Shown here piece by piece: positions 8,672-28,357 of a stretch of DNA of 32,891 nucleotides (position 1 is the stretch's first letter; each line of letters starts with the position of its first letter). The notes beneath the pieces were generated by a model. The model saw nothing but the letters and a program-made list of their open reading frames with translations. It made no database searches and had not been told where the DNA came from. This DNA is from Noviherbaspirillum suwonense. Its GTDB lineage: Bacteria; Pseudomonadota; Gammaproteobacteria; Burkholderiales; Burkholderiaceae_D. The translations under genes and the position numbers were made by a program. The DNA lies in contig NZ_FXUL01000037.1 in the NCBI RefSeq assembly GCF_900182955.1, positions 1 through 32,891 of the forward strand, written 5' to 3'.

Positions 8672-8673
8672 GA

Positions 8674-9078
8674 TCAACAATTCTTATCATTGAGAGTTAA
8701 AACGTCATCACCCCATGCAGAATGAAGAAGGTTGGTCACCATAGTTTCACCGATTAGGGAGGTCAGTATGTCAAGGAACGTGCTTAGCAACAAAATACTT
8801 GCTTCACGCACTTCCATTATGTCCCGTCCTTCCAAGCGGCTTCGTAATCCCGCGACTTGGAAATCAGTCTGTTTCAAAGGCGAATTCTGGGCTAGCCACG
8901 GATAGCGCTTTGCCGCAAGCATGGAACTCCTTACATAGATTGCCTGGAAGCCGCCGTCTCCTATTAAGGAAACGAGTTCGACGGCCAGCTTTTCCCAGAG
9001 CCAGAGAGTGACATCCACGAGTGCATCCGGCCGCCGGGATATGGCTCTGCCGATAAGGGAGTTCCATGAAGTTTCCAT
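8674..9078 (-). CDS. Small soluble protein of unknown function, coupled to the KaiC-like gene
   Basis: 134 aa from the ATG at 9078 (a TTG lies two codons upstream). It begins METSWNSLIGRAISRRPDAL and is mostly helical in appearance, with no signal peptide or clear membrane segment. Features include VTLWLWEKLAVELVSLIGDGGF and a hydrophobic C-terminal helix with TFLDILTSLIGETMVTNLL. Its stop is 2 nt before the KaiC-like ATG, which argues that both are made from one mRNA and may act together. I recall similar small proteins beside KaiC-like ATPases in related betaproteobacteria but cannot name a domain. The ribosome binding site is weak. Confidence 0.75.
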   Translation of the reverse strand: METSWNSLIGRAISRRPDALVDVTLWLWEKLAVELVSLIGDGGFQAIYVRSSMLAAKRYPWLAQNSPLKQTDFQVAGLRSRLEGRDIMEVREASILLLSTFLDILTSLIGETMVTNLLHSAWGDDVLTLNDKNC

Positions 9079-9121: not shown

Positions 9122-9199
9122 ATGAAAACTGCATCTAAAAAAAATAAGTCGAAAAATCTCGACGAAGTCGATTTCTGGCCTGACATAGACGTCATTTAG
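9122..9199 (+). CDS. Tiny AT-rich ORF (25 aa) opposite the kinase cluster
   Basis: An ATG at 9122 opens 25 codons (MKTASKKNKSKN, then an acidic and aromatic end DFWPDIDVI) to TAG at 9197-9199. It lies on the opposite strand in the gap between the histidine kinase stop and the small-protein start, overlapping the kinase stop by 8 nt. The upstream sequence has only a weak AGAAG. It may well be a chance frame. Confidence 0.15.
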   Translation: MKTASKKNKSKNLDEVDFWPDIDVI

Positions 9200-10409
9200 C
9201 GCTCGCTGAGTAAAGCAGGCTAGCCAATACTGCCTTGTTGACCGGCTCTTGCAAGAAATGATCAAATCCTCCTGCCGTCGCGTGAGCCTGATCGACCTGT
9301 GAACTCTGTTGGGTCACGGCAATAAAACTATGCACGGAATCGCCGGCACGGGATCGTAATTGACTGCACATTGCATCGTTGTTGATGTCGGCCATTCCAA
9401 CATCACAAATGATGACATCATATGCATTCTTCCCCGCCAGCAGAATGCCGGTTGGCGCATCCCGGGCCAACGTCGCCGCATGCCCTTGCAAGTTTAAATC
9501 GTTTTTCAGGTTTTCCTGCAGGTCGTCGCCGTTCCCAATGATCAGGATGCGTTGCGCCTGCGGGGGTCGCGATTGGAGATCCAGATCCTCGCTCCCGGGC
9601 TGCAGCGGTGCGGCAATGATAGGCAGCTGTACCTTGAATTCACTGCCCGGAACCATGTCATCGCTTTTGATTTCGACCGTGCCGCCGTGCATCTCCACGA
9701 TGGTGCGAACCAACGACAGGCCAATGCCAAGCCCCCCGTGCACGCTTTCGTGCGTACGAGCGCCTTGTGCAAACAGGTCGAACACCACACGCTGAAGTTC
9801 CGCGCTGATGCCTACGCCGTCATCTTTCACGGAGACGATCACGCTATCGGGCGTAGCCACTGCCGACACAGCGATGTGCCCGCCTTCGGGCGTGAATTTG
9901 GCCGAATTAATCAGCAGATTCGAGAATACCTGCCCTAGCCTGACGAAGTCGCCGTTGAGCATAATCGGTGCCGCCGGTAAAGCAATGCTCAAGTGCTGTT
10001 TACGCTCATCCAAAACAGGTTTGCTGGTTTCGACAGCGTACTCAATGACGTCCGCTACAGAAAGTGGCTGTCGTTTCAACCCAAACTTCCCGCTGCTTAC
10101 TCGCGAAGCGTCCAGCAGGTCGGTAACAAGGCGGGTAAGGCTGCCTACCTGCCGGGCCATGACCGCGTGAAGGTGAGGCAGTTTGGGATGCGCTGAAGTA
10201 ATCATGCCGAGTATCTCGGTGGCACTGGTAAGTGGCGCCAGGGGGTTACGCAACTCGTGTGCCAGCATGCAAAGGAATTCCTTTTGCCGATCATTAACCA
10301 GTTCGGCGTTGGCCTGGAGCTCCTTTGCGAGCACGGTCGCAATCACAAGACGCTGGTTGGCCTCCCGCAGCCGTTTGACCAGGTCGTCTTCCGCTTCCAT
10401 GCTCGTCAT
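9192..10409 (-). CDS. Hybrid-type histidine kinase with a degenerate receiver domain
   Basis: 405 aa and cytosolic, as no membrane segment is seen. A short helical linker (residues 8-40, REANQRLVIATVLAKEL) leads into the dimerisation helix with the phosphoacceptor His51 (MLAHELRNPL). The ATPase domain has the N box (NLLINSAKFTPEGG), G1 (DDGVGIS), F box (VFDLFAQG) and G2 (GGLGIGLSLV), so the kinase looks active. The C-terminal receiver (about 286-405) keeps the phosphoacceptor Asp336 (IICDVGM) but has Gly292-Asn293 in place of the acidic pair and Glu388 in place of the conserved Lys. It is probably a pseudo-receiver. The ATG at 10409 is chosen over a GTG at 10433 because AAAAGG lies about 10 nt before it. 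The small protein and KaiC-like genes follow on the same strand, 113 nt downstream, and may belong to the same signalling unit. Confidence 0.92.
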   Translation of the reverse strand: MTSMEAEDDLVKRLREANQRLVIATVLAKELQANAELVNDRQKEFLCMLAHELRNPLAPLTSATEILGMITSAHPKLPHLHAVMARQVGSLTRLVTDLLDASRVSSGKFGLKRQPLSVADVIEYAVETSKPVLDERKQHLSIALPAAPIMLNGDFVRLGQVFSNLLINSAKFTPEGGHIAVSAVATPDSVIVSVKDDGVGISAELQRVVFDLFAQGARTHESVHGGLGIGLSLVRTIVEMHGGTVEIKSDDMVPGSEFKVQLPIIAAPLQPGSEDLDLQSRPPQAQRILIIGNGDDLQENLKNDLNLQGHAATLARDAPTGILLAGKNAYDVIICDVGMADINNDAMCSQLRSRAGDSVHSFIAVTQQSSQVDQAHATAGGFDHFLQEPVNKAVLASLLYSASAK

Positions 10410-10727
10410 TGCGTAATCGCCTTTTATCTGCACCTAGGAACAGGCTCTCCTAGAGTCGCCCATTTTTTTCGAGCGCATAAAACATCGAATTTCAAGTTGA
10501 CAGCTCAGCATACCTTTATTTGACCAATCATCAAATGAAGATTCGTTTCTTCCTTCGCTCCGGATATGAACTCATGTCCACCCAATTCGCTTTATGCTCC
10601 ACTATCTGCGAAAGGGATCCATGACCGGGACGACTGAATGCATTCTCTCACGCTTGTGGCTTATGCAACATTTTTTCGTCGAAAGGTGCATGCGAGCCGG
10701 CATTATCAAAGACAGGCAGATCGACGG

Positions 10728-16196: not shown

Positions 16197-17747
16197 TCAG
16201 GCATATTTAAGCTTGGGGACTTTACGGTGTTGGGTCTTCGCCTCGTATGCGAATGCGAACGCTAGCAAATCGGCCTCGCTCCAGAGCTGGCCAACAAACA
16301 TGATGCTGAATGGAGAGCCGGATGCATAATATCCTGCCGGAACAGTCACGCCAGGCAAACCTGCAATGTTGATTTCTCCCACATTGGTCTCCTGTATGGT
16401 GTCGCGATCCTGTAATAACGGAAGCTCTTCGCGCATTTGAGGCATCAGCATCGCGTCAAGCTGGTGCCTCTCGAAAACCTCTTCGACGATATTCAGATAT
16501 TTCGTCTTCAGCTCGATAAACTGAGAGATATCCGGCGGCGTCCGTGGGTTAGCGGCTATCGCAGCAAACTGCGGGAGATTCGGCATGAAGCTCAGGACGC
16601 CTTCCGGGCCGAACGCATCTTCTTGCGCAGTGACCCGGGCAAACTCCTCTACGGTCTTGATTGCCGCATTCGGGCCAAGCCGGTCAAGATATTGCTGCAG
16701 ATCGTAGGGGATAGACTCAAGACCGCGCGCATCGAAATTGACCAGAGGAGGTGTAGGCTGGCGCAATTCGGCAAATCCACTGCCTGCGAAAGGATCTTCA
16801 ACCAGGATTGCACCCAACGCGCGAAGCTCGTCCTTCGCCCGCTCATAAAGTTCTTCTGCTTCTGCAGAGAGCGGCTGAGTGCGCCAGCCGTTACCATAAA
16901 GACCGAGCCGTTTTCCGTTGAGGGCTTCCTTGCTTAGTTTGGCGGTGTAGCCGCCTTTCGGCTGCTTTCCCACGCCAGCAAGCGTTTTTGGATCCTCCGA
17001 CGAATAACCGGCCAGCACATCCAGACATAAGGCAGCATCTCGAACGCAACGCGCGATCGGCCCTACGACGTCCCGGTTGCTGGACAGGGGCACCACGCCG
17101 GCATTAGGCACCAATCCTATGGTCGGTTTAATGCCAACCAGATCCTGAGCCGAAGCGGGATTTTGAATCGAGCCACCTGTCTCTTCTGCCAAGCCCAGAA
17201 TTGCCATGCCTGAGGCTACCGACGAAGCAGTACCTGCGCTGCTTCCCCCCGGTTTGCGATCGGGCATGACCACATTCAACGTGGGACCAGCCCAGCTGTC
17301 ATTGGCGTGGCTGCCGGAATGGCTGAGCACTGGCACGTTCGTCTTGCCCAGGATAATGGCGCCTGCTGCGCGCATGCGTGCTACCACCGGCGCATCCCGC
17401 TCAGGAAGCAGATCGACTCCCCCTGCCTTGCTGCACAAGAATTTCCAGCCTGCCGTCGTAGGGAATCCCACCATATCCATTGGGTCCTTCACGACGACCG
17501 GAATGCCAGCCAGCGGTCCTAGCGTCTCACCGGATGCACGCCTACCGTCAATCTCTCTCGCATCATTCAACGCGCTTTCGTTCAGAAATATGATGGCATT
17601 GTAGAAAGGATTATATTTTTCAATCTGTTGAAGGCAGGCAGCCACGATGGACTCCGCGGTAAGCTGATTGGTCGCATAAGCCGCCTGAATCGATTCCACC
17701 GTTAGCGTGCTAAGGTCCACGTCCGCCACGCCTGCTTGGTTACTCAT
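16197..17747 (-). CDS. Amidase-signature family hydrolase
   Basis: 516 aa, typical for amidase-signature enzymes, which split amides to the acid and ammonia. The Ser-cisSer-Lys triad can be placed: Lys87 in GIPVVVKDPMD, the Gly/Ser-rich loop GGSSAGTASSVASG (cis-Ser near 169), and nucleophile Ser193 in ETGGSIQNPAS. No signal peptide, so it acts in the cytoplasm. Start ATG with AAGGGAG 7 nt upstream. It lies between the formamidase and SDR genes of the operon, with a 143-nt gap to the formamidase gene, and would hydrolyse amides brought in by the linked transporter. The exact substrate is open; aryl, aliphatic and nitrile-derived amides are all known for the family. Confidence 0.93.
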   Translation of the reverse strand: MSNQAGVADVDLSTLTVESIQAAYATNQLTAESIVAACLQQIEKYNPFYNAIIFLNESALNDAREIDGRRASGETLGPLAGIPVVVKDPMDMVGFPTTAGWKFLCSKAGGVDLLPERDAPVVARMRAAGAIILGKTNVPVLSHSGSHANDSWAGPTLNVVMPDRKPGGSSAGTASSVASGMAILGLAEETGGSIQNPASAQDLVGIKPTIGLVPNAGVVPLSSNRDVVGPIARCVRDAALCLDVLAGYSSEDPKTLAGVGKQPKGGYTAKLSKEALNGKRLGLYGNGWRTQPLSAEAEELYERAKDELRALGAILVEDPFAGSGFAELRQPTPPLVNFDARGLESIPYDLQQYLDRLGPNAAIKTVEEFARVTAQEDAFGPEGVLSFMPNLPQFAAIAANPRTPPDISQFIELKTKYLNIVEEVFERHQLDAMLMPQMREELPLLQDRDTIQETNVGEINIAGLPGVTVPAGYYASGSPFSIMFVGQLWSEADLLAFAFAYEAKTQHRKVPKLKYA

Positions 17748-17890: not shown

Positions 17891-18916
17891 TCAGCTTGCA
17901 ACGGCGGTTGTCAGTTCGGCGTTACCTTCAGCCGCGAGGTAACTTTTTGCAATGGCGGCGCCCACGGTATATTTAGGGTCGACAAAGTTGCCGAGCCTGA
18001 CCTTGCCGCACTGGCTGAGCAGCATGTAAGCATCCCATTTATCAAATCCGTAGTCCTTGGCCATCCAGAGAATGAGCTCCTTGTATGCAATGCGGGTGGC
18101 ATCTTCCAGAGGGCGTGCGCTTCCTATGCCCATGATGCAATTCTCATTTTCCAGTCGTGGCCAGTCGATTGCCCAGCTCTTGATCAGGTCGACACGGATG
18201 GTGGTCACGCTTTTATACTCGACTGCGACCCCGCATACTTCCCCGTCTCCCTGGCACGCATGCGCGTCGCCAATAAAGAGCCGCGCGCCTTCGGAGCGGA
18301 CGGGAAGATAGGTAATGCTTCCCGGCCCCATGTCCGGCAAGTCCATATTGCCGCCGTGATTGTCTGGCGTCAGGGAGTTGATCGAGTCAATCTCGGGCGA
18401 CAGGCTCAATGTGCCGATATGCGGCTTGTAATCAAGCGTCGTGCGTTTGCTCCAGTACACATACTCAGTGTCGATTTTTACCCGACGCACTTTTTCCGGC
18501 AACGGATCATTCAACATCGCCGTATAGTTCGTGCCAGTTAGCGCACCGAACTCTGGAATCATGCAGCAAATGCCATGGGGATCCTCTCCTCTTGGCATCA
18601 TGCTTTCAATATACACGGCGACCACATCCCCTTTTTCGGCACCTTCGATCATGATCGGACCGTTCTGAGGATTCAGGAACGGCATTTTCAAAAGCGCGGT
18701 TGGCGAATCACTTTCGGATTTAATGGCGCCTTCGAAGGCGTCGCGCGTGTCGACAATGATTCTGTCGCCTGGCTTGACGTGCAGCACAGGCTGCGAATAA
18801 GGGCCGATCGTGTAATGGAAGACTTTTTGAAGTTCTTCCGTGAGGTGATGTACGACCGGCTCGCGCTTGGCGCCCACGCCGCGTTGCATCATGATCGAGT
18901 CTTTAAGCCATTCCAT
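17891..18916 (-). CDS. Formamidase/acetamidase family protein (FmdA/AmdA)
   Basis: 341 aa; hydrolyses small amides such as formamide or acetamide to ammonia and the acid. Family features include the N-terminal KPGDRIIVDTRDAFEG, GAEKGDVVAVYIESM, PHIGTLSLSPE, DNHGGNMDLPDMGPGS and the strongly conserved IGDAHACQGDGEVCG. It is shorter than the Methylophilus formamidase type (about 400 aa) and nearer to the short acetamidase/formamidase forms. The ATG has AAGGAG 8 nt upstream and lies 15 nt after the stop of the ATPase gene, so it is translated in the same operon as the transporter. This link, plus the AmiC/AmiR-like genes upstream, supports a short-chain amide as the operon's substrate. Confidence 0.93.
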   Translation of the reverse strand: MEWLKDSIMMQRGVGAKREPVVHHLTEELQKVFHYTIGPYSQPVLHVKPGDRIIVDTRDAFEGAIKSESDSPTALLKMPFLNPQNGPIMIEGAEKGDVVAVYIESMMPRGEDPHGICCMIPEFGALTGTNYTAMLNDPLPEKVRRVKIDTEYVYWSKRTTLDYKPHIGTLSLSPEIDSINSLTPDNHGGNMDLPDMGPGSITYLPVRSEGARLFIGDAHACQGDGEVCGVAVEYKSVTTIRVDLIKSWAIDWPRLENENCIMGIGSARPLEDATRIAYKELILWMAKDYGFDKWDAYMLLSQCGKVRLGNFVDPKYTVGAAIAKSYLAAEGNAELTTAVAS

Positions 18917-18931
18917 GTTTTCATCTCCTTA

Positions 18932-19645
18932 TTAAACCGCCAGGTGTCGGCGCATCAGTTCAGCGTCATTAAGTTGTTGTTTCGTCAGATGTTCGACGAC
19001 TTTTCCCTTGTCCATCACGCAGCATCGGGTAGCGGCCATTTCAACCATGTTCATGTTCTGCTCGACGAGCAGGACACCGATGCCTAGCGAGCCCGAGATC
19101 TCGACCAGTTTTGCCGCGATAGATTGCACAATGGAGGGCTGTACGCCTTCGGACGGCTCATCGAGCAGCAACACCCGCGGCTTGCCGACCAGCACGCGGG
19201 CGATCGCAAGTTGTTGCTGTTCGCCGCCACTCATCGTGCCGGCCTTTTGCCGTAACTTGGCTCGGAGAACAGGAAAAAACGAAAGCGCCATTTCCATCTC
19301 GGTCGTGCCTTTCGACGCGAGCATTTGCAGGCCAACCTTCAGGTTCTCCTCGACAGTCAGTGCAGGAAAGATTTCGCGACCTTGCGGGACATAGCCAAGT
19401 CCGGCTTTTGCGCGGACGTCGGGAGTCAGTGGGGACAGGTCCCGTCCATCAAGTTCGATGGCGCCGCTATCTGTCCTGAGGATGCCGATCAGGGTTTTCA
19501 GCAGCGTTGACTTGCCGACGCCATTGCGCCCGATGATGGCGACGATTTCGGACTTTTCCAGTGTCAGCGTCACGCCATTCAACACCTTGCTTCCAGCGTA
19601 TCCGGACTGTAAGTCGGTCACTTGCAACAGAGGCGTTTCCATCAT
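18932..19645 (-). CDS. ABC transporter ATP-binding protein, UrtE/LivF type
   Basis: 237 aa. Cytoplasmic ATPase that powers import. Walker A is GRNGVGKST (about residues 39-47), the signature is MSGGEQQQLAIARVL, and Walker B is RVLLLDEPSEGVQPS; the H-loop residue is replaced as in UrtE/LivF proteins (LLVEQNM). The ATG at 19645 overlaps the TGA of the preceding ATPase gene by 4 bp (ATGA), a sign of tight coupling. Resemblance to the urea-transport ATPase UrtE is close (GYGS-like start, RAKAGLGYVPQGREIFP), but the operon carries amidases rather than urease, so an amide is the likelier cargo. Confidence 0.93.
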   Translation of the reverse strand: MMETPLLQVTDLQSGYAGSKVLNGVTLTLEKSEIVAIIGRNGVGKSTLLKTLIGILRTDSGAIELDGRDLSPLTPDVRAKAGLGYVPQGREIFPALTVEENLKVGLQMLASKGTTEMEMALSFFPVLRAKLRQKAGTMSGGEQQQLAIARVLVGKPRVLLLDEPSEGVQPSIVQSIAAKLVEISGSLGIGVLLVEQNMNMVEMAATRCCVMDKGKVVEHLTKQQLNDAELMRRHLAV

Positions 19646-20355
19646 CGTTTTCCCAGGTAGATTTCCGCGACATCATCGCGTTCCAGGACTTCCTTGAGCG
19701 GGCCATCGGCAAACACTTTTCCGCCGTGCAGTACGGTTACCTGCGTACCGACTTGCCTGACGAATTCCATGTCGTGTTCGACAACCATGATCGTCAATCC
19801 TTCTGCCTTTAAACGCTTTATCAGCTCGCCAGTATGTTCTGTCTCTTCCGTCGACAAACCGGCGACAGGCTCGTCAAGCAGCAGAAGCTTTGGGCGCAAG
19901 CCGACGGCCATGGAAATTTCAAGCCACTGCTTCTTGCCGTGGGAAAGATTTCCGGCTTTCACGTTGCTTTCAGAAGACAGGTTAAACAGGTTGAGCATGC
20001 GATCAATCTCGTCACTGACCTCGTGAGGGCGAACGACACGGTGCACCACGAGTTTCAGATGTTCCAGAACGGTCAGATCCGGAAAAATGCCGGGGACTTG
20101 AAACTTGATGCTCATGCCAAGCCCAACCCTGCGAAATGGAAGCACGTTCGAGATATCACGGCCCTGGAAGCGAACCGACCCGGCGGTTGGACGGTGTTCT
20201 CCAATAAGCAACTTGAAGAATGTGCTTTTGCCTGCACCGTTTGGGCCAATCACGCAACGTGTCTCACCTTCATTGATCCTGAAGTCGATACCGTTTACTA
20301 CCTGCGCGCCGCCAAAGCTCTTGCATAAGCCTTTCGTTTCCAGAATCGGGATCAT
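19642..20355 (-). CDS. ABC transporter ATP-binding protein, UrtD/LivG type
   Basis: 237 aa from the ATG at 20355 (MIPILETKGLCKSFGG). A longer frame exists upstream to 20676, but that part is out-of-frame reading of the permease gene; GGAAA lies about 8 nt before the chosen ATG. Walker A is GPNGAGKST, Walker B LLLLDEPVAG, and the signature reads NLSHGKKQWLEIS. The LSHG-KQWLE form is typical of UrtD rather than of LivG, which has LSYG. It would pair with the UrtE-type ATPase encoded next. Confidence 0.93.
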   Translation of the reverse strand: MIPILETKGLCKSFGGAQVVNGIDFRINEGETRCVIGPNGAGKSTFFKLLIGEHRPTAGSVRFQGRDISNVLPFRRVGLGMSIKFQVPGIFPDLTVLEHLKLVVHRVVRPHEVSDEIDRMLNLFNLSSESNVKAGNLSHGKKQWLEISMAVGLRPKLLLLDEPVAGLSTEETEHTGELIKRLKAEGLTIMVVEHDMEFVRQVGTQVTVLHGGKVFADGPLKEVLERDDVAEIYLGKR

Positions 20356-20408
20356 TGTGTTTTCCACTTTAGCTATTCGGTTTCGCAAAATCGCACTGCG
20401 AGCTGCTG

Positions 20409-21485
20409 TTATCGCTTGCTGAGCCGGGAAATTTTCGAGGCAATCGTGGGACCCAGCCCCTCCGGGGCGGCCATCACGACAAGCAACAGGATCGCTCCCA
20501 TGATGACAAGAGCATATTGACTGCCGTAGACGACCAGTTCCTGTGAGAGGACCAACAGCGCGACGGTCGCAATGATGGCGCCGGGGATGCTTTTCCGGCC
20601 GCCGGTAGCGACCCAGATGATGGGCATCGCCGCGGACGTCAGGCCCATGGACGAAGGCGTAATGTAGGATCCCCATACGGTGTACAAAACGCCCGAGAGC
20701 CCCGCCAGCGTGCCGCCGAAAACGAAGATCGCGAGTTGATAACGCCGGATGTCTATACCCAGCATTTCAGCCCGATGCGGATTCTCGCGGATGGACTCCA
20801 GTGTCAGGCCAAATGTGGAGTCGAGTAGCTTTCGCGTGCCAAAGTAGACCACCGCCAGCATCAGCAACACGGCGAAATAAAAATAGACCCCCTCCACCAG
20901 GATATTTTCGCCACCCAGTCCAGGCAAAGACAGCGACGGCATCGCAGACATTCCATTGAAGCCATTGAGCCGGGCTTTTCCGATTGCCCATTGTGGGCCG
21001 GCGGTTTGCGCCATGAAGGTCTCGAACACCAGGGTTATGGACAGGGTAACGATGCCGATAAAAACATCCTTGATGCCGCCGTAGAAGATCATGTACCCCA
21101 AGACCAGGGCCATCAGGAAGCACAGGACCAGGGCGACGACGACGCCGCTCCATGTAGACAGCGGCGACTCGCCCAGATTTAGCGTAAAGACGCCGTACGC
21201 ATAACCTGCCAGACCAAAAAAAGCAGTTTGCCCAAAGGACAGGATGCCGCCGTAGCCCCACATCGCCGACAGCCCGATCGCGGCGAACGTCCAGACAAGA
21301 CAGTAAGCAAGATTGTTTACGGCGGAATCTGCAAGAAACAGGGGTAATAAGAAGCAGGCAAGAATTGCCATCAGCATCGGATCGGCCTTCCATCTGGACC
21401 GAAAGGACGCCGTTTTTCGAGTGGGAGCCGCCACCTTTATTTTGGGACTGCTGATGCCGCTCACGGTCGGTTCTGTTGGATTCAC
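20409..21485 (-). CDS. ABC transporter permease, UrtC/LivM type
   Basis: 358 aa inner-membrane permease. After a basic, cytosolic N-terminus of about 35 residues come the hydrophobic segments, starting PMLMAILACFLLPLFLADS. The family motif GYGGILSFGQTAFFGLAGYAYG lies near residue 75-97, and the cytoplasmic coupling loop SIRENPHRAEMLGIDIRRYQL near 235. It starts with GTG, GGAG 7 nt upstream, only 12 nt after the stop of the partner permease, so both are made together and form the membrane pore. Confidence 0.93.
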   Translation of the reverse strand: MNPTEPTVSGISSPKIKVAAPTRKTASFRSRWKADPMLMAILACFLLPLFLADSAVNNLAYCLVWTFAAIGLSAMWGYGGILSFGQTAFFGLAGYAYGVFTLNLGESPLSTWSGVVVALVLCFLMALVLGYMIFYGGIKDVFIGIVTLSITLVFETFMAQTAGPQWAIGKARLNGFNGMSAMPSLSLPGLGGENILVEGVYFYFAVLLMLAVVYFGTRKLLDSTFGLTLESIRENPHRAEMLGIDIRRYQLAIFVFGGTLAGLSGVLYTVWGSYITPSSMGLTSAAMPIIWVATGGRKSIPGAIIATVALLVLSQELVVYGSQYALVIMGAILLLVVMAAPEGLGPTIASKISRLSKR

Positions 21486-21497
21486 GCTTGGCTCCGA

Positions 21498-22364
21498 TTA
21501 CCGACGGTTGAAAAGGCTGCCAACCCCTTGGGGCAGCACGCGGATGATCACGATAACGGTCAACAACAGGCCGATTTGCCCGGCGAGCTGTCCATAATTG
21601 GCAGAAAGGCCGCTTTGGATGAAGCCGAGAAGTGCGGCGGCCGGAAGGGTTCCTTGCAAGACGTTGGCCCCGCCAGTTACCACTGTGACGAATGCCTGAA
21701 CGATAAAGCCGCTGCCCATTGTCGGAACGGCTGTAATCGTAGGCGCGTACACGGCGCCGGCCAGCCCGGCCAGACCGGCGCCAAGGGCAAAGGTAAGCGT
21801 GTAGATTCGCGACGTCTTCAAGCCCAGGCAGCGGGCCATGGTGGCATTCTGTATCGTTGCGCGCGCATAGATCCCGTAATTGATACGGAAGAACAGCCAA
21901 AACAGGCATGCCAGCGTTGCGATGGCGAAAAACGGCAGCAGCGCCCGGTAGGTTGAGAACGAATACTCGCCTAGTTGAAACGGTTGAAACGGCGTTGAAA
22001 GACCTTCGATCGACGGACCCGCGAAGATGAGCATGGCCTGCTGTGTAATAAGGCTCACAGCCCAGGTGGCGACGATGGAATCGAACAGGCGGTTATAAAG
22101 ATGGCGCACAATCAGCCTTTCCAGAATGACACCGGCGATCGCGGATGCCGCGACACCAAGGAACATCGCAATTGGTAGTGGAACGCCCTGTTTCGCGGTA
22201 AGGACTGTCACGTAAGCGCCGCACATGATGAATTCGCCATGTGCCAGGTTAATGACGCCCATCATTCCAAAAATCACGGCTAAGCCAAGTGCCGACAGGG
22301 TCAGGTAAGCGAATGAATCGCCGAACTGGTAGACGTAGGAATAGACGGTGGCGAGAAAATTCAT
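21498..22364 (-). CDS. ABC transporter permease, UrtB/LivH type
   Basis: 288 aa, the short LivH-like form, without the long N-terminal region of urea permease UrtB. Motifs are FGMMGVINLAHGEFIMCGAYV near residue 30-50 and the coupling segment ARATIQNATMARCLGLKTSRI near 175. Several hydrophobic helices follow (LTFALGAGLAGLAGAVYAP). It lies 82 nt after the binding-protein stop, with a hairpin in the gap (22392-22417) that may lower its expression relative to the binding protein. With the UrtC-type permease it forms the channel. Confidence 0.93.
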   Translation of the reverse strand: MNFLATVYSYVYQFGDSFAYLTLSALGLAVIFGMMGVINLAHGEFIMCGAYVTVLTAKQGVPLPIAMFLGVAASAIAGVILERLIVRHLYNRLFDSIVATWAVSLITQQAMLIFAGPSIEGLSTPFQPFQLGEYSFSTYRALLPFFAIATLACLFWLFFRINYGIYARATIQNATMARCLGLKTSRIYTLTFALGAGLAGLAGAVYAPTITAVPTMGSGFIVQAFVTVVTGGANVLQGTLPAAALLGFIQSGLSANYGQLAGQIGLLLTVIVIIRVLPQGVGSLFNRR

Positions 22365-22446: not shown

Positions 22447-23670
22447 TTACCGCTTCGGTGGATTGGCTGGCGTGTACTGCGACGTATCGGCTTTCACAGC
22501 GAGGTTGCAGCCGGAATCGCCTAGCCAGTAGGGCTTGATGTCATTCCACACCTTGGGAAATTCAATGGAATGATCCGCTTTCACATGGGCGAGATAAATC
22601 GTGTGCGTCAGATGATGACTCTTTGGGTCGATACACACTTTTCCAGAAGGTCCATCGGTACAGATGTTGCCCGCTTCGAGTGCCTTGCGAACAGCGACCT
22701 TATCGGTCGATTTCGCGGCTTCGACAGCCGCCTTGTACAGATAAACGGCATCGTAGGCGTTGGCGGCTTCCTGTGAGATGTAAGGCTCGTCGGCAAACTT
22801 TGCCCGGAATCGTTTTTTGAAATCATTGCTTGCGGGAGAATCTACCTCCTCGATGTAGTTGGGGGTCACATACATGTCCTTCAGCGCAGGCGGCTTGAAC
22901 CGTTTGTGCTCATACGCCTGACCGACCTGGATCGAGCTTCCCATGGGTAGATTGAGGTTTGCGGCAGCCTGTTGCTCGAAAAATGCCGACTGGATATTAC
23001 CTACGAGCAGCGTCATTACAAAATCCGGCTTCGCCTTCTGGATGTTTTGAATGGTTTGACCGAATTGCGAAACGCTAAGCGGAATAAACTCTTCACCGAC
23101 CATGGTGCCGCCATTCTCTTTCACGATTTTTCGAACCCATTCAGCAGAAATCTGGCCGAAGTTATAGTCTGCCGCGATCGTATAAACTTTCTTGCCGTAC
23201 TTTTCCATCAGCCATGGAACCAGTGTGGAAAATTGTTGTTCAGGCACTGCGCCCGTCACAAAGACGTTAGAGTCGCACACCCCGCCTTCATACTGGTTGT
23301 TGTAGAAATAGAGTTGCTTGGCCTTATCCATGATTGGACGAATCGCTTCACGTGACGCACTCGAGAAAGCGCCAAAGATCACATCCGGTTTGTCAGTATT
23401 GACTAGCCGGCGCGCCAGTTCCTGGAATTTTGTATTGTCTGATTGGGTATCGTAGTGAATTAACTTGATTGGCCGGCCCAATACGCCGCCCTTCGCATTT
23501 ATCTCCTCGACCGCCAGCTGTGTAGCATGAATCTTGGGGAGCACAGCGAGCGCGAAATTTCCGGAAGCATCTTCAAGCAGCCCGAGTTTAATCGGGTCGG
23601 CAGCAAAAGCAGATAAAGAAATAGGCAGCGAAACGACACAGCCAGCCAAAAACGTTCCGACTTTATTCAT
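22447..23670 (-). CDS. Periplasmic substrate-binding protein of the amide ABC transporter
   Basis: 407 aa from the ATG at 23670, which has GGAG 6 nt upstream; a longer in-frame start at 23781 would run through the terminator and is rejected. The protein opens with a signal peptide (MNKVGTFLAGCVVSLPISLS, cleavage likely after AFA) and then PIKLGLLEDASGNFA. It belongs to the UrtA/FmdD-like group of Peripla_BP proteins. Two stretches, YDTQSDNTKFQEL and FYNNQYEGGVCDSN, closely match the cytoplasmic sensor encoded upstream (YDPQSDNTSYKRL, FYPEQYEGFEFSN), suggesting that receptor and sensor bind related ligands. It is the first gene of the operon, just after the promoter and leader terminator. Confidence 0.93.
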   Translation of the reverse strand: MNKVGTFLAGCVVSLPISLSAFAADPIKLGLLEDASGNFALAVLPKIHATQLAVEEINAKGGVLGRPIKLIHYDTQSDNTKFQELARRLVNTDKPDVIFGAFSSASREAIRPIMDKAKQLYFYNNQYEGGVCDSNVFVTGAVPEQQFSTLVPWLMEKYGKKVYTIAADYNFGQISAEWVRKIVKENGGTMVGEEFIPLSVSQFGQTIQNIQKAKPDFVMTLLVGNIQSAFFEQQAAANLNLPMGSSIQVGQAYEHKRFKPPALKDMYVTPNYIEEVDSPASNDFKKRFRAKFADEPYISQEAANAYDAVYLYKAAVEAAKSTDKVAVRKALEAGNICTDGPSGKVCIDPKSHHLTHTIYLAHVKADHSIEFPKVWNDIKPYWLGDSGCNLAVKADTSQYTPANPPKR

Positions 23671-23705
23671 AACTTCTCCGAGGAAATCCAAGAAAACGAA
23701 AGACG

Positions 23706-23741
23706 AAAAAAAGCCCGCGCCGAGCAATGCTCGGTTCGGGC
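23706..23741 (-). terminator. Intrinsic terminator in the operon leader
   Basis: On the minus strand the leader reads GCCCG-AA-CCGAGC-ATT-GCTCGG-CG-CGGGC followed by seven T. The stem has 5 plus 6 GC-rich pairs around a 2x2 internal loop. It lies 36 nt before the ATG of the binding-protein gene and downstream of the promoter at 23797-23825, so it would stop that promoter's own transcripts unless disrupted. Confidence 0.88.
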
Positions 23742-23785
23742 TTTTTTGCCGATTCCATGTGTCGACATCGTTGGCGCACACATGG
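23736..23785 (-). promoter_or_regulatory. Candidate ANTAR-target leader (two hexaloop hairpins, antiterminator)
   Basis: Hairpin P1 (23755-23785): outer stem CCATGTGT/ACACATGG, one bulged G, then CGCC/GTCG with one mismatch, closing a six-base loop AACGAT (23767-23772). This has A at position 1 and G at position 4, as known for RNAs bound by ANTAR proteins. Hairpin P2 (23736-23752): TCGGC/GCC-C-GA with one bulge around the loop AAAAAA; G is missing at position 4, a deviation. P2 uses the GCCCG arm of the terminator, so the two structures exclude each other. The ANTAR protein is encoded by the next gene upstream. Function is inferred. Confidence 0.68.
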
Positions 23786-23796
23786 ATTACCTTCAG

Positions 23797-23825
23797 ATAC
23801 TATTCGGCGGCTTGGTACGTGTCAA
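23797..23825 (-). promoter_or_regulatory. Sigma-70-type promoter of the amide operon
   Basis: TTGACA at 23825-23820, a 17-nt spacer, and TAGTAT at 23802-23797 on the minus strand, close to the sigma-70 consensus. Transcription would start near 23790, just before hairpin P1 of the leader, which is the spacing expected for control by antitermination. Confidence 0.78.
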
Positions 23826-24171: not shown

Positions 24172-24822
24172 CTATTCGCTGCTGACTGACTTTTTTAACC
24201 CTGCTGGAATTGCGTTGAATAATATCTTGTTTGCCTGAATAACCTGGCTGGCGACATCTTCAATCTGCAATCGCAAATTCATCGCCTGAGTTCGTAGCAT
24301 TTCGTACGCGTCGGATTCAGATGCCCCATGCATGGCAATCAGAATTTTTTTGGCTTCTTCGATAGTTCGAGCGCTGGTCGCCTTGTTTTCAAGTCGTCGA
24401 ATTCTTTCTTCAGTTTTCTCGTAGTGTCTGGCATGCTGGAGCGCCATCATGACCGTTGACAGTACGCCAAGAGCATGTACGGGACTCACCAGCATTCCCA
24501 TTGCGCCAATCCGTAATGCCTCGTCGACAACCGCCGGGTTTTCGAAATTGATCACCGATACGATGGGGGGGTGATCCTGTTGCAGCCATGGATAAGATGT
24601 TTCCTCAGCCTCGGGGGCGATAAACAAGAAGATGAGATCGATCTGGCCGTCGATCTCCTGTGGTGGCGGCCAACGGAGTTCAACAGTGCACCCGATCCGC
24701 TTCAGTTGCTGTGAAAGCGTGAGTCCATCTAGATCCTCGGGACAAAATACTTTTATCTGGGGTGTCCTGGATAAAACGGATCTCGTAAAGCTTGTAACTC
24801 TTCGATAAGCGGGCTGGGTCAC
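24172..24822 (-). CDS. amiR: AmiR-like ANTAR-domain transcription antiterminator
   Basis: 216 aa from the GTG at 24822, which overlaps the TGA of the sensor gene (GTGA) and has AAGGA 8 nt upstream; an in-frame ATG at 24864 is less likely. The N-terminal receiver-like domain (about 20-130) lacks the phosphorylated Asp (IDLIFLFIAPEAEE), as in Pseudomonas AmiR. A coiled coil follows (TEERIRRLENKA). The C-terminal ANTAR domain (about 145-200) has RTIEEAKKILIAMHGASESDAYEMLR and the alanine-rich RNA-binding helices MNLRLQIEDVASQVI in two parts. Known AmiR binds leader RNA and prevents terminator formation; AmiC holds it inactive until an amide binds. A fitting leader lies just downstream. Confidence 0.9.
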   Translation of the reverse strand: MTQPAYRRVTSFTRSVLSRTPQIKVFCPEDLDGLTLSQQLKRIGCTVELRWPPPQEIDGQIDLIFLFIAPEAEETSYPWLQQDHPPIVSVINFENPAVVDEALRIGAMGMLVSPVHALGVLSTVMMALQHARHYEKTEERIRRLENKATSARTIEEAKKILIAMHGASESDAYEMLRTQAMNLRLQIEDVASQVIQANKILFNAIPAGLKKSVSSE

Positions 24823-25976
24823 GTTGTTTCCTTTTCGAGAGGCTTGGAGTCTTGCCTGTCCCATTTGTGATGCACCATATACGGATCAGGTTCGACCCGC
24901 TGAACAGCATCTTTGAGTATCGTAAATTGTCCCTGACTGTTGGCTTGGCCTATGCGGGGGTACAAGCTTGCATGATGATTGGACGGGCTAATGCGAACGT
25001 TCCCCTGAGGTGCATCTATTTCGCTGCCGAGAAGGCACGGAAGAAGGGATTGGATATCGTCGCTACCAGCCTTTTCGAATGCCTTGGCAAATAGTTTCAT
25101 TCCGAAGTAGGATGCTTCCCAGTTCATATTCGGTATGGCGAGAGTACCGTAAGAACTTTCAAAAAATCGGGCAAGCGTATTACGATTTTCAGGAGAATCG
25201 ATACTTTGAAAGTAAGGAGATGAGGTAAAATGTCCACAAGCCGCATCCGCACCCATGATTGCAATCTCGGCTTCAGAAGTATTGAGACTCCCAATTGGCA
25301 TAGTGCCAGGGTCGAGACCAAAATTACAGAATGCCTGATACAGGTAGGAAACGGACCTCCCGATTAACGTGCAAAAGATAAAATCAGGGCGTTTTTCGAT
25401 AATATCTTTTACCACTTCTTCGATAGCAGCAAAGTTGGCATAGAGACTGACATAACGCTCGCCCACAATTGCATTCCCGGGGAAATTTGAGATAAGCGAT
25501 TGCATCGTGCGGTTGGTCTCGTACGGATAATTGTAGCGAGATCCGATCATGTAAATTCGATTCCCGAACCGGGAAACCATATAGTCGGCGAGTTGGACAA
25601 TATTTTGATTCGGAGCCGCACCCGTATAAATAACATTATTCGAAAATTCAAAGCCTTCGTACTGTTCCGGGTAAAACAATAGCTTATTGTATTTCTCGAC
25701 GATCGGAAGCATTGCCTTTCTGCTACTCGACATATAACCACCAAAGATCACATTAACCTTGTCTTCAGTGATCAATTGCTCCACTAATCGCTTATAACTG
25801 GTGTTGTCGGACTGCGGGTCGTAGCGAACACCAACTAGTTCCCTTCCGTCAACACCGCCTTGTGCATTGATCTCCTGGATGGCAAATAACGCACCATACA
25901 GTTGAGATGACTCCAGTTCGGAAGTCACACCTGTTTCTGAGAACAGCAGGCCAATACGGACCGGGTCTTTATTCAT
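24819..25976 (-). CDS. amiC: AmiC-like cytoplasmic amide sensor
   Basis: 385 aa, about the length I recall for Pseudomonas AmiC. Periplasmic-binding-protein fold without a signal peptide (starts MNKDPVRIGLLFSETGVTS), so it stays in the cytoplasm. Matches to AmiC by eye include YDPQSDNTSYKRL, YPEQYEGFEFSNNVIYTGAAP, MIGSRYNYPYETNR, SLNTSEAEIA, SSPYFQSIDSP, and EIDAPQGNVRISPSNHH. In the known system AmiC binds AmiR and releases it when an amide enters the cleft. The gene overlaps the ANTAR gene by 4 bp, which fits a stoichiometric complex. Start ATG 25976 gives the family's usual N-terminus; a TTG at 25994 is possible but less likely. Confidence 0.93.
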   Translation of the reverse strand: MNKDPVRIGLLFSETGVTSELESSQLYGALFAIQEINAQGGVDGRELVGVRYDPQSDNTSYKRLVEQLITEDKVNVIFGGYMSSSRKAMLPIVEKYNKLLFYPEQYEGFEFSNNVIYTGAAPNQNIVQLADYMVSRFGNRIYMIGSRYNYPYETNRTMQSLISNFPGNAIVGERYVSLYANFAAIEEVVKDIIEKRPDFIFCTLIGRSVSYLYQAFCNFGLDPGTMPIGSLNTSEAEIAIMGADAACGHFTSSPYFQSIDSPENRNTLARFFESSYGTLAIPNMNWEASYFGMKLFAKAFEKAGSDDIQSLLPCLLGSEIDAPQGNVRISPSNHHASLYPRIGQANSQGQFTILKDAVQRVEPDPYMVHHKWDRQDSKPLEKETT

Positions 25977-26648
25977 CGAATATTCTGTTAGCAATAAACA
26001 TGCCGCATCGCCGGCAAGATATTTGGGTGGATTTCGGAAGGTATAGGTTTTGTGTTTGCAATCCTCTGGTGCGCCTGTAACCTTACTGATAATTTTCGCA
26101 CCAGTCTAAAGCATTTAAATCCGGATCGCACCTGATTAGCACGCTGCTGGAATGCTTTCCTTAAATCAATATTGACGGCCGTGAGTGGGTCTGATCCAGC
26201 AGTCTGCGATTGATATTTCCTCGCTTGATCCGGCGAGGAACGCGACTCCATCTGCTGTTGAGTTAGTTGTCCGTCACGAATTCCTGGTCGAAATGCCGAA
26301 AAAATTAAGGCTTCGGCAAGGCTGAGCAATTAAAGAAACGCGGCTCCAACCCAAACATGGTTGGCCTTCTCCATTAATGACCAATTTTGCACCAGTGGTC
26401 GATCAGGGGGGCGTTGCCCACCCCTCACCGAACTGCGACATGGTCCAGCCGCCTTTGCCAGGTCGGTTAAGCCGTCCCCGCCATACAACTGCTGCTATCG
26501 AAGCACCAAGCGCTTACTGCAACAGTTACATTCTCACGAAGGGGCTCAGGCAAGCAGAACCTTGTGCTTCCGGAGTTCCATGTGCCCGCAGCCAGCCGAC
26601 ATCGTCGTCATCGCGCTCCCGCGCAGTCATCCGCGACACCAAGTTCTT
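25977..26648. other. Upstream region of the sensor gene
   Basis: About 670 nt without a convincing gene. A 113-codon minus-strand frame (25988-26329, TTG start) has no recognisable motif and overlaps the sensor start region. A 7-bp dyad, TGCCGAA/TTCGGCA, lies at 26294-26318. The sensor promoter must be here, but I could not single out a good match to sigma-70 boxes. The stretch 26360-26600 may be a decayed gene; I could not identify it. Confidence 0.4.
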
Positions 26649-27551
26649 CTACCGGGGCCGCTGGTCCTGCAGCGTAAATATTCCCGCATAGCCGTTCCTG
26701 AAGCTGGGCGGCAATTCGATCACGCCCGGCTCGACCCGGGCATGGCGCGACGGTTCGCCGCGCACCATGCGGTTGCGGTGGCGGCTGTCGATGACCGGGT
26801 CGGTATACGCAAATGCGTCTGCTGCGACGTACTGGATGATATAGGTGGTCCGCACCGCATCGGACAGGTTGGCGCTGGAACCATGCACCGCCAGGCCATG
26901 GTGGGCAACAATGTCGCCCGGGTCGAGTTCGTTGTCCACGATCTGCGCCATATCCGCAGCCGTCATGCTGGCATTGCAATTGAGCGTATAGAGCCCCTGG
27001 TCCCAGTGGCTGCGCGGCCCTTGTCGATGGCTGCCGGGTATGGTCTGCAGGCATCCGTTGCCCGAGCGCGATGGGTTCAGCGGCACGCTCAGCGCCACGA
27101 TGTTGCTGTTCGTATGCGGGAATACCGCCCAGTCCTGATGCCAGCCGATTTCAGCGCCGCCTTCGGGCAACTTGAAATTGACCTTGGAATGGTAGAACTT
27201 GACCGGCCCGCCGACGAGGTCGGCCGCAATGTCGCCAAGGACCGAATAGAATGCGGTGTCGATAAAAACCGGGTCAAGTTCGGTCGGGCTGGAAATACGA
27301 CGGATGCGCGGCCTTTCGGGCGTGTGAAAGGCATCGAGGTCGATATGCGCTGTCTTCTCTGTCAGTTTGCCGGCTTCCGTGCAGATCCGGTCGATTGCTG
27401 TATTCAAGCGCTGCAGCAGCGCCAGCTCCAGCATGGCGCGCATCGTCAGGAAGCCGGCGGCATGGTATTGCGCGATCTGCGAAGCGCCTAGCACTGGCCG
27501 GTGCGCGGCAGCCTGCGGTGCCATGGTGCTGCCCTGCCCTGCCGCATTCAT
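26649..27551 (-). CDS. Phytanoyl-CoA dioxygenase (PhyH) family oxygenase, second gene of the pair
   Basis: 300 aa, Fe(II)/2-oxoglutarate-dependent. Iron ligands: His138 and Asp140 in GWHQDWAVFPHT and the distal His223 in LAVHGSSANLS, with Arg234 (DAVRTTYI) for 2-oxoglutarate. The conserved SGNGCLQTIPGSH segment (about 163-175) is present. The ATG overlaps the TGA of the preceding PhyH gene by 4 bp. It has a longer N-terminus than its partner and only modest similarity to it, so it is not a recent duplicate; the two may act in succession on one small molecule. The substrate is unknown. Confidence 0.92.
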   Translation of the reverse strand: MNAAGQGSTMAPQAAAHRPVLGASQIAQYHAAGFLTMRAMLELALLQRLNTAIDRICTEAGKLTEKTAHIDLDAFHTPERPRIRRISSPTELDPVFIDTAFYSVLGDIAADLVGGPVKFYHSKVNFKLPEGGAEIGWHQDWAVFPHTNSNIVALSVPLNPSRSGNGCLQTIPGSHRQGPRSHWDQGLYTLNCNASMTAADMAQIVDNELDPGDIVAHHGLAVHGSSANLSDAVRTTYIIQYVAADAFAYTDPVIDSRHRNRMVRGEPSRHARVEPGVIELPPSFRNGYAGIFTLQDQRPR

Positions 27552-28357
27552 GCCGCCACCTGGCGTGTCGTCAGGATAGCGTCGCTGCCTGGCTTCAGCG
27601 GCGCGAAGTTGGTCGAACGGACATAGTCCGGGCGCGGGTTCGGCACATCCAGCGGCTTGTTTGCCACTTGATTGTAGACCACGTAAATAGCCCAGCGGTC
27701 ATGCCGCGACAGGTTGTGGCCGGACGCGTGCAGGATGTTCGGATGAAAGAATACGACGGTGCCGGGCTCGCCGGTGATGGGTACCGGCTCGGGGCTGCGT
27801 TCCATGATGTCCAGCAGGTCTTCCTTGGGCACCACCCAGAATTTGTAGGCAGTCGCTTCGTCGAAGCGCGGCTCCAGGTTGCCGACCTTATGGCTACCCG
27901 GGATGAAATACAGGCAGCCGTTGAATTCGGTGGGCTTGTCGAGCATGACCAGAGCGGTGGTCAGCGCCGGCTCTGGCACGCCATCCTTGCGCCAGGTGCC
28001 GTAGTCCTGGTGCCATTGCCAGACCGAGCCATCGATGGCTGTCTTCAAATTACACTTGGTATGGTAGACATACAGGCTCTCGTCGCCCAGCACGCCTTGC
28101 GCCGGCTCGAGCATGCGCGGGCATCGCGACGCCGCATGAAACACGGGCGACGCGGTCGGGCCGTTATCCTCATGCACCCGGTAGATTGTCTTGGCGACGC
28201 CACCGCTGCGCTCGCGCACCAAGTGGTCGGTGTCGATGTCCTGGATGCGGCGCAATTCGGCCTTCATTGCGTCCACTTCGTCTGTCGAAAAAAGACCGGG
28301 CATGACCAGAAAGCCATCGCGGTCGTACGTCTCGAGCTGGGTCTTGCTGAGTTTCAC
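27548..28357 (-). CDS. Phytanoyl-CoA dioxygenase (PhyH) family oxygenase, first gene of the pair
   Basis: 269 aa. Ligands His116 and Asp118 (WQWHQDYG), distal His210 (FFHPNILHASGHNLS) and Arg221 (RHDRWAIYVVYN) are intact, and the core FNGCLYFIPGSHKVG is typical. It begins with GTG behind a strong AAGGAGA ribosome binding site. It is transcribed away from a LysR regulator that starts 122 nt off, and its stop overlaps the next PhyH gene by 4 bp. The pair looks like a small LysR-controlled catabolic unit. Ectoine, quaternary amines and halogenated or methylated acids are known PhyH substrates, but none is indicated here. Confidence 0.93.
   Translation of the reverse strand: MKLSKTQLETYDRDGFLVMPGLFSTDEVDAMKAELRRIQDIDTDHLVRERSGGVAKTIYRVHEDNGPTASPVFHAASRCPRMLEPAQGVLGDESLYVYHTKCNLKTAIDGSVWQWHQDYGTWRKDGVPEPALTTALVMLDKPTEFNGCLYFIPGSHKVGNLEPRFDEATAYKFWVVPKEDLLDIMERSPEPVPITGEPGTVVFFHPNILHASGHNLSRHDRWAIYVVYNQVANKPLDVPNPRPDYVRSTNFAPLKPGSDAILTTRQVAA

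Follow-up and report, generated by a model that had tools for sequence, protein, structure and literature searches.

The window considered here, i.e., the whole 32,891-nucleotide stretch of Noviherbaspirillum suwonense DNA that was analyzed (contig C37 within a 6.45 Mb genome), carries on its minus strand, in order, an amiC-like gene, an amiR-like gene, a leader, a urtA-like gene, urtBCDE-like genes, a gene of the FmdA/AmdA type, and an amidase gene. The features of this region are as follows:

24819-25994, minus strand: amiC-like ligand-sensor gene (Peripla_BP_5, 423 bits)
24172-24864, minus strand: amiR-like gene (AmiR_N, 88.7 bits, and ANTAR, 48.5 bits)
23797-23825, minus strand: sigma-70-type promoter, TTGACA-17-TAGTAT (-35 at 23825-23820, -10 at 23802-23797)
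23754-23786, minus strand: P1 hairpin with a closing C-G pair and loop AACGAU at 23772-23767 (A1 = 23772, G4 = 23769)
23739-23750, minus strand: P2 hairpin GGC[AAAAAA]GCC, the putative antiterminator (GGC at 23750-23748, GCC at 23741-23739)
23706-23741, minus strand: intrinsic terminator GCCCG...CGGGC (hairpin at 23741-23713, seven T at 23712-23706)
22447-23670, minus strand: urtA-like binding-protein gene, the first after the leader (TIGR03669, 589 bits, cut-off 494.8)
18932-22364, minus strand: urtBCDE-like permease and ATPase genes (family matches), singly at 21498-22364, 20409-21485, 19642 to about 20400 (start not fixed), and 18932-19645
17891-18916, minus strand: FmdA/AmdA-type acetamidase/formamidase gene (family match)
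16197-17747, minus strand: amidase-signature family gene (family match)

The gene next upstream of the leader had been called AmiR-like in a first-pass annotation of the sequence, and the matches to AmiR_N and ANTAR domains bear this out; the protein carrying both domains is encoded beside the AmiC-like binding protein, as in an AmiC/AmiR pair. Elsewhere on the minus strand, two adjoining PhyH-type (phytanoyl-CoA dioxygenase) genes (26649-28357) lie upstream of the amiC-amiR region, and a KaiC-like ATPase gene (7220-8680) has a histidine-kinase gene (9192-10433) nearby. Plasmid records, queried with a 700-base region around the leader, gave no match.

The same annotation had described a promoter, a first hairpin with loop AACGAT (A1 and G4), a second hairpin with loop AAAAAA, and a GC-rich terminator followed by seven T, all of which were located on the minus strand between 23825 and 23706. 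Two refinements apply to P1: the G at 23777 is bulged, and a C.U mismatch (23774/23765) adjoins the closing C-G pair. The loops are called six-base loops according to the published manner of counting, since the folding program pairs A1 with U6 in the P1 loop. Together, the two hairpins and the terminator occupy about 80 nt, leaving 35 nt between them and the ATG at 23670. The P2 loop occupies 23747-23742, with A1 at 23747 and an A (A23744) at position 4, and the 3' arm of P2 lies within the 5' arm of the terminator, the annotated common element GCCCG being visible in both; it follows from these shared bases that P2 and the terminator would be mutually exclusive. Folding of the leader, which had been suggested as a check, gave -43.9 kcal/mol, vs -25.3 kcal/mol in dinucleotide shuffles (z = -5.65), 0 of 200 of which were as stable. 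In predicted folds of growing transcripts, P1 forms, then P2 (at lengths 61-81), and P2 is lost once the terminator closes, the terminator fold being 10.4 kcal/mol better than the full-length fold in which P2 is enforced.

As a site, the promoter matches the consensus at 10 of 12 positions and is the best promoter-like site of the 11.5 kb scanned. An ortholog (L139) has TTGACA-17-TATTAT at the equivalent place, and a promoter of at least 9/12 lies upstream of 27 of 79 leaders found by the covariance model described below, vs 3.4% of shuffles. The reverse complement of the terminator (23666-23747, plus strand) also scores with the leader model (32.5 bits), and the terminator looks bidirectional.

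As an alternative, the leader might act by attenuation coupled to translation of a leader peptide, or belong to another known class such as the Thr leader. An ATG (23783) and a GTG (23781) lie inside P1 on the minus strand, and the frame of the GTG is open through the leader into urtA, which also means that an automatically assigned urtA start may be 37 codons too early. Searching Rfam over the window returned a weak match to Thr_leader, and similar ones, yet no family reached its gathering score; specifically, the Thr_leader match scores 20-23 bits against a gathering score of 55. The ortholog L139, moreover, has no ATG in its P1, and the letters that are conserved among relatives are those of the two loops and their stems. 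A leader of either kind is therefore highly improbable, and the stretch is better read as a target of an ANTAR protein.

Leaders of the dual-hexaloop ANTAR class have been described upstream of eut, nasF, and amiE, each reported to carry A1 and G4 in both loops. The leader in the window likewise has two hairpins with stems of at least three pairs and six-base loops, A1 in both loops, a P2 that overlaps the terminator, and a G at position 4 of P1 (G23769). Position 4 of P2 is instead A23744, and the leader is accordingly called a variant of the class. With the eut (Enterococcus faecalis, EutV) and nasF (Klebsiella oxytoca, NasR) leaders it shares two six-base-loop hairpins with A1 and a terminal C-G pair, a P2 stem common to an intrinsic terminator, a nitrogen-metabolism operon, and an ANTAR protein; it differs from them in having A4 rather than G4 in P2 and a pyrimidine mismatch below the P1 closing pair, and in that P1 position 4 across its group is G or A according to the protein. 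Similarly, it resembles the Pseudomonas aeruginosa amiE leader in its AmiC- and AmiR-like genes and amidase operon, though here a urea/amide ABC transporter gene would be the first under control, and P2 carries A4, as opposed to the A1/G4 reported for both amiE loops (PMC3369931).

The consensus recurs in other published accounts. Selection with NasR gave the closing C-G pair, A1, and G4 (PMC7496416), and an actinobacterial survey repeats A1/G4 and allows a single point variation in the loop (PMC8164766). The survey of Ramesh et al. (2012; PMC3369931), whose seed kept A1 and G4 in each loop, listed regions upstream of urea transporters among its hits and named Burkholderia and Pseudomonas; these predicted RNAs have target genes of the same kind as the leader described here, and the survey loci may overlap single loci of the present set. 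A literature search, mostly outside subscription journals, found no report of A4 leaders or of a correspondence between protein residue and loop base. The dual-hexaloop ANTAR leader is itself known; the A4 leaders and the residue-base correlation set out below are apparently new.

Relatives of the leader were sought around genes for AmiR relatives, with the best 80 of the 119 such loci being used. In many of these best 80 loci amiC-amiR lies at the far end of the urtABCDE operon, so that a leader can be searched for upstream of urtA without reference to amiR. Of the 43 regions upstream of urtA, 20 were kept, 18 being too short and 5 lacking a terminator by the test used; three of these five (L034, L042, and L055) later gave a leader by covariance model, and no leader was seen at the other two, which are second urt clusters of L081 and L086. 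Joined by four loci from Methyloversatilis, by the ortholog L139, and by the window itself, the 20 make up a set of 26 leaders chosen by their terminator only. In Methyloversatilis (L050, L057, L059, and L067) there are two leaders on the same strand about 5.3 kb apart, one of them directly before urtA and the other farther upstream.

All 26 terminator-chosen leaders have the P1 closing C-G pair with A1, and A1 in P2. In P1, both partners have changed at five of six pairs, and pairing is kept in 93.6% of cells. Scored jointly, P1 and P2 gave a covariation of 0.438, compared with 0.134 +/- 0.022 after shuffling and no more than 0.094 when the alignment was slid; two of five covariation measures were not extreme, specifically the count of doubly changed pairs (equaled in 55 of 500 shuffles) and that of pair types (equaled in 122 of 500). 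The terminator covaries in the leader alignment as well. P2 is nearly invariant, with GGC facing GCC in all but one cell, and so shows no covariation; its pairing rests on conservation and spacing, and the distant relative L140 has other outer P2 pairs. The covariation of both hairpins that had been proposed as a check was therefore found for P1, whereas P2 hardly changes at all. The second P1 pair among 79 leaders is C.C in 58, C.U in 12, A-U in 8, and U.C in 1, and a mismatch below the closing pair, being common among relatives, looks like a component of the motif.

Spacing provides a second line of evidence. In 81 sources, 122 terminators were found, 52 of which have a three-pair P2 with an A1 hexaloop, and among these 52 the distance from P1 loop to P2 loop is 18 in 38 cases, vs about one expected per distance. 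The full leader finder gave no hits on five block shuffles. In the 79 model-found leaders the distance is 18 in 61, 19 in 15, 17 in 2, and 20 in 1, the window and the ortholog L139 both having 19 nt, and all 79 have a six-base P1 loop with A1. Exceptions occur in P2: a seven-base loop as scored in L041 and L056, and, outside the set of 26, the absence of A1 in L078 (GAAAAA), L056 (TAAGAAA as scored), and L221. The proposal that P2 is merely the A-run of a bidirectional terminator was considered and rejected, as P2 loops are 80% A vs 27% A elsewhere, the latter value being that of the six bases before the arm in 59 terminators outside leaders.

Two further scans relied upon narrower definitions. 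A finder that demanded strict pairing recovered 46 matches, of which two in L039 overlap, from 39 of 82 sources, but missed the window and its ortholog because their P1 is bulged. A scan of the 81 sources for A1 and G4 in both loops gave one hit against 1, 1, 0, 1, and 0 in controls, which is not above chance; this null result was initially taken as speaking against an ANTAR target, and was explained once the real loops, in which P2 is without G4, had been read.

These data bear upon the simplest reading of the region, in which P1 and P2 serve no function and the terminator merely ends the amiC-amiR transcript, standing by chance behind a promoter-like site. The region indeed holds no more promoter- and terminator-like sites than shuffles do (eight promoter-like sites in the scanned 11.5 kb, 7.8 in shuffles), and generic terminators of the GCCCG...CGGGC kind are widespread, 135 of 294 genomes of the same family matching the leader model at E <= 0.001. 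Yet in many relatives the leader still stands before urtA when amiC-amiR is at the other end of the operon, P1 covaries, the spacing is fixed, only 1 of the 59 other terminators has a P2 (by a stricter, exact rule), and the promoter recurs in the ortholog. A functionless arrangement is thus very unlikely, and the two hairpins are more readily understood as the parts of an ANTAR target.

The association of the leader with AmiR was followed across genomes with a covariance model (R1) built from the 26 leaders, the window's included and those of G001 (a genome of the same genus) and G007 excluded. Weak R1 matches are, as read, mostly generic terminators, and so matches at E <= 1e-8 alone were used for co-occurrence. 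Ten of the 294 same-family genomes have such a match, and nine of these fall among the 16 of 294 with a P0001-like AmiR (E <= 1e-14); AmiR was not found in the tenth, G023, whose assembly is 86% complete. The seven AmiR genomes with no strong leader consist of four from one genus with a distant AmiR (about 30% identity) and three fragmented assemblies. Searches were extended to 38 genomes, the source of 39 AmiR loci that had previously yielded either no leader or one outside the stretch, and a match at E <= 1e-6 was found in 32 of the 38 and none in 6.

Investigation of EutV has provided the structural frame in which the AmiR-like protein can be read. Tyr164 is the stacking partner of G4 in the EutV-RNA structure, and Arg142, Lys149, and Glu160 hold this base; the solved complex has one base-specific contact, and the E160A change weakens binding 60-fold (PMC8934654). 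With EutV numbering fixed by matching the residues named in that account to the aligned chain, residue 183 of the window AmiR (Glu, codon 24318-24316) aligns with EutV Glu160, a position at which P. aeruginosa AmiR also has Glu in the alignment. Seven of 11 EutV RNA-contact residues are identical in the window AmiR (Lys149, Glu160, Tyr164, Arg168, Met172, Asn173, and Arg175); Arg stands for Lys143, and Ala, Glu, and Gln replace Arg142, Lys147, and Arg177, respectively.

The first-pass annotation had asked whether recognition is relaxed or P2 is recognized differently, given that P2 lacks G4, and a partial answer comes from the group as a whole. Position 4 of P2 was tallied in the 75 leaders for which a six-base A1 P2 loop was scored and the AmiR residue is known, giving 69 with A, 4 with G, and 2 with T (L041, L056, and L078, with a seven-base or non-A1 P2 loop, are outside the 75). 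Absence of G4 from P2 is therefore the rule in this AmiR group, and it is position 4 of P1 that tracks the protein. Specifically, for the 76 AmiRs whose genome also has a leader, P1 carries G4 in 42 of the 43 leaders that go with Glu at residue 183, and A4 in 42 of the 45 that go with Asp, Lys, or Arg, such that the rule holds in 84 of 88 leaders overall. When the leader and amiR lie within one fetched stretch, it holds in 53 of 53; three Pararobbsia alpina paralogues outside the table, of which two fit and L221 does not, bring this to 55 of 56.

Residue 183 ranks first among AmiR columns for mutual information with the P1 base (0.759 bits, the next being 0.503; columns with more than 20% gaps were excluded). 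On a tree built without column 183, the residue class changes at least six times and the base at least seven. A dependent-evolution (Pagel-type) test, run on a quick tree rooted at its midpoint and with each AmiR represented by a single leader, gave a likelihood ratio of 27.6 (p = 1.5e-5), and p = 0.21 and 0.053 for two other high-ranking columns. A pair test on supported branches, which offered only two independent pairs and hence too few for a sign test, gave on average 0.9 agreeing, 0 disagreeing, and 1.1 without a difference.

Several exceptions to the rule have been identified. Firstly, L047, a metagenome-assembled genome in which leader and amiR are on different contigs, pairs Glu with A4. 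Secondly, Paraburkholderia oxyphila (G784) pairs Lys with one G4 and one T4 loop; these odd loops are the second copies of tandem pairs, its five leaders are on contigs other than those of the amiR genes, and a second Lys-type amiR of this genome (L046) was not counted apart. Thirdly, L221 pairs Asp with G4, and its ANTAR domain lacks the Met plug and the binding-loop Arg. Left out of the 88 were G023 (AmiR not found), L233 (no AmiR seen in the fetched stretch), the low-scoring second leaders of L035, L064, L079, and L092, the leader L224:4666 (G4, between two AmiR genes), a further L140 leader, and antisense and duplicate matches. The loops of L036, L052, L088, L107, L140, L220, L221, and L222 were entered by hand.

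The rule was also applied to new genomes, with AmiRs taken from a set of 399 that represent the order. Leaders matching at E <= 1e-6 turned up in 16 of the 22 genomes searched and in none of the other 6; residue and loop could both be read in 13 of the 16, every one of which agrees with the rule, and G1084, G905, and G1113 could not be scored. Among the 13, six leaders are identical to ones already used (L048, L060, L068, L081, L110, and L111), leaving seven that are new, all of which fit: six pair Glu with G4, and G059 pairs Ile, a residue absent from the 76-AmiR set, with an A4 loop. The G057 leader is 90% like that of L110, the other new leaders being at most 71% like any earlier one when compared without gaps. 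The AmiRs of G057 and G059 were already present in the query alignment (A1), and their leaders were previously unseen.

A correlation of this kind may reflect shared operon ancestry rather than recognition, and the small number of changes on the tree, together with there being just two independent pairs on its starred branches, lends that explanation some weight. However, residue 183 is first among the scored columns and its EutV equivalent contacts G4, the tree-aware test was passed by residue 183 and not by two control columns, and Ile, a residue not seen in the 76 AmiRs, came with A4 in G059; common ancestry on its own is thus unlikely, though far from negligible. Recognition by an AmiR residue remains the preferred reading, and the data suggest that one residue of AmiR would determine which P1 loop base is read, an apparent one-residue, one-base code in the ANTAR dual-hexaloop class. 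We consider it likely that single-residue switches in AmiR changed the RNA target several times, with docking that is base-specific at P1 and a P2 that is captured in cis with no requirement at position 4; in this joint reading, Glu at the EutV-160 position would go with G4 in P1, and Asp, Lys, Arg, or Ile with A4. A link between P2 position 4 and EutV position 147 was also looked for, appeared partial only, and is not claimed.

The genome encodes a second ANTAR protein (G000:C1:126018, at L001), NasT-like by eye, which might be proposed as the protein that acts on the leader in place of AmiR. This protein also has Glu at the Glu160 position (read by eye), but its gene lies beside what appears, again by eye, to be a nitrate-type binding-protein gene, and the leader of relatives goes with AmiR, the P1 base following AmiR residue 183. 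A role for the NasT-like protein at this leader is extremely unlikely, which leaves AmiR as the favored partner.

Taken together, the anatomy and conservation of the leader, the covariation of P1, the linkage to amiR, and the correlation between residue 183 and the P1 base argue that the leader is very probably an RNA switch operated by the adjacent AmiR-like protein. The first-pass annotation had proposed an AmiR/ANTAR antitermination leader, and P1 covariation, amiR linkage, and the conserved loops lend support to that proposal; confidence is high that the leader of the urtABCDE-fmdA-amidase operon is the RNA target of the neighboring AmiR-like ANTAR protein, acting by the antitermination mechanism proposed below. 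The absence from P2 of G4, a published feature of ANTAR targets, counts against this reading, as do the three of 11 EutV contact residues that differ, the 4 of 88 leaders that break the rule, the invariance of P2, and the AmiR genomes that gave no leader match (6 of 38 and 6 of 22).

By default, the nascent RNA would fold P1 and then the terminator, and RNA polymerase would stop before urtA. Upon binding of a ligand by AmiC, probably a short amide or urea-like compound, AmiR would be released, much as amide-dependent release of AmiR has been reported in P. aeruginosa (PMC3369931). The ANTAR domain of AmiR would then dock on P1, with Glu183 reading loop position 4 alongside the conserved aromatic residue and the Met plug, and would subsequently capture P2 at the fixed loop-to-loop distance of 18-19 nt. 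Captured P2 would occupy the 5' arm of the terminator, allowing transcription to continue into the operon, the whole of which would thereby come under amide control. In this scheme only P1 carries the protein-matched base, while P2 retains its stem and nearly always A1 but has not kept G4, so that P1 would be the specific entry site. The authors of the EutV study propose successive binding, P1 first (PMC8934654); contacts in the EutV crystal are fuller at P2, and the AmiR group may therefore use its two loops differently.

Published descriptions, as far as these cover the choice of target by ANTAR proteins, give one consensus (A1 and G4) for all, and a residue that covaries with the contacted base would explain how targets are chosen. 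Were this to hold, ANTAR regulons would be predictable with the right search model, the G4-only scan having found none of these leaders, and there would be natural, mutually insulated ANTAR-RNA pairs, some in one genome. The contrast between a matched base in P1 and an unmatched one in P2 supports successive binding with P1 first, and makes it testable in a natural system. The urea/amide ABC transporter operons of many Burkholderiales are, in addition, placed under likely AmiC/AmiR control.

Some genomes carry more than one such leader. In P. oxyphila, tandem leaders about 100 nt apart precede urtA (L229:5062-5260 and L230:2670-2864), with G or T at P1 position 4 of the second copy and Lys in both AmiRs read. 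Pararobbsia alpina (G796; L224-L227 and L233) has six AmiR-like genes, and among the four AmiRs of this species with a nearby leader, Arg and Lys go with A4, Glu with G4, and the Asp protein with a degenerate binding loop (L221) with G4. Finally, a distant relative that represents another family of the class (L142, 9535-9623, plus strand) has its leader directly after amiR, with P1 loop AACAGC above a pyrimidine mismatch, P2 loop AAUAAA, and a spacing of 19 nt; its AmiR has Arg at the EutV-160 position, and its P1 loop has A4.
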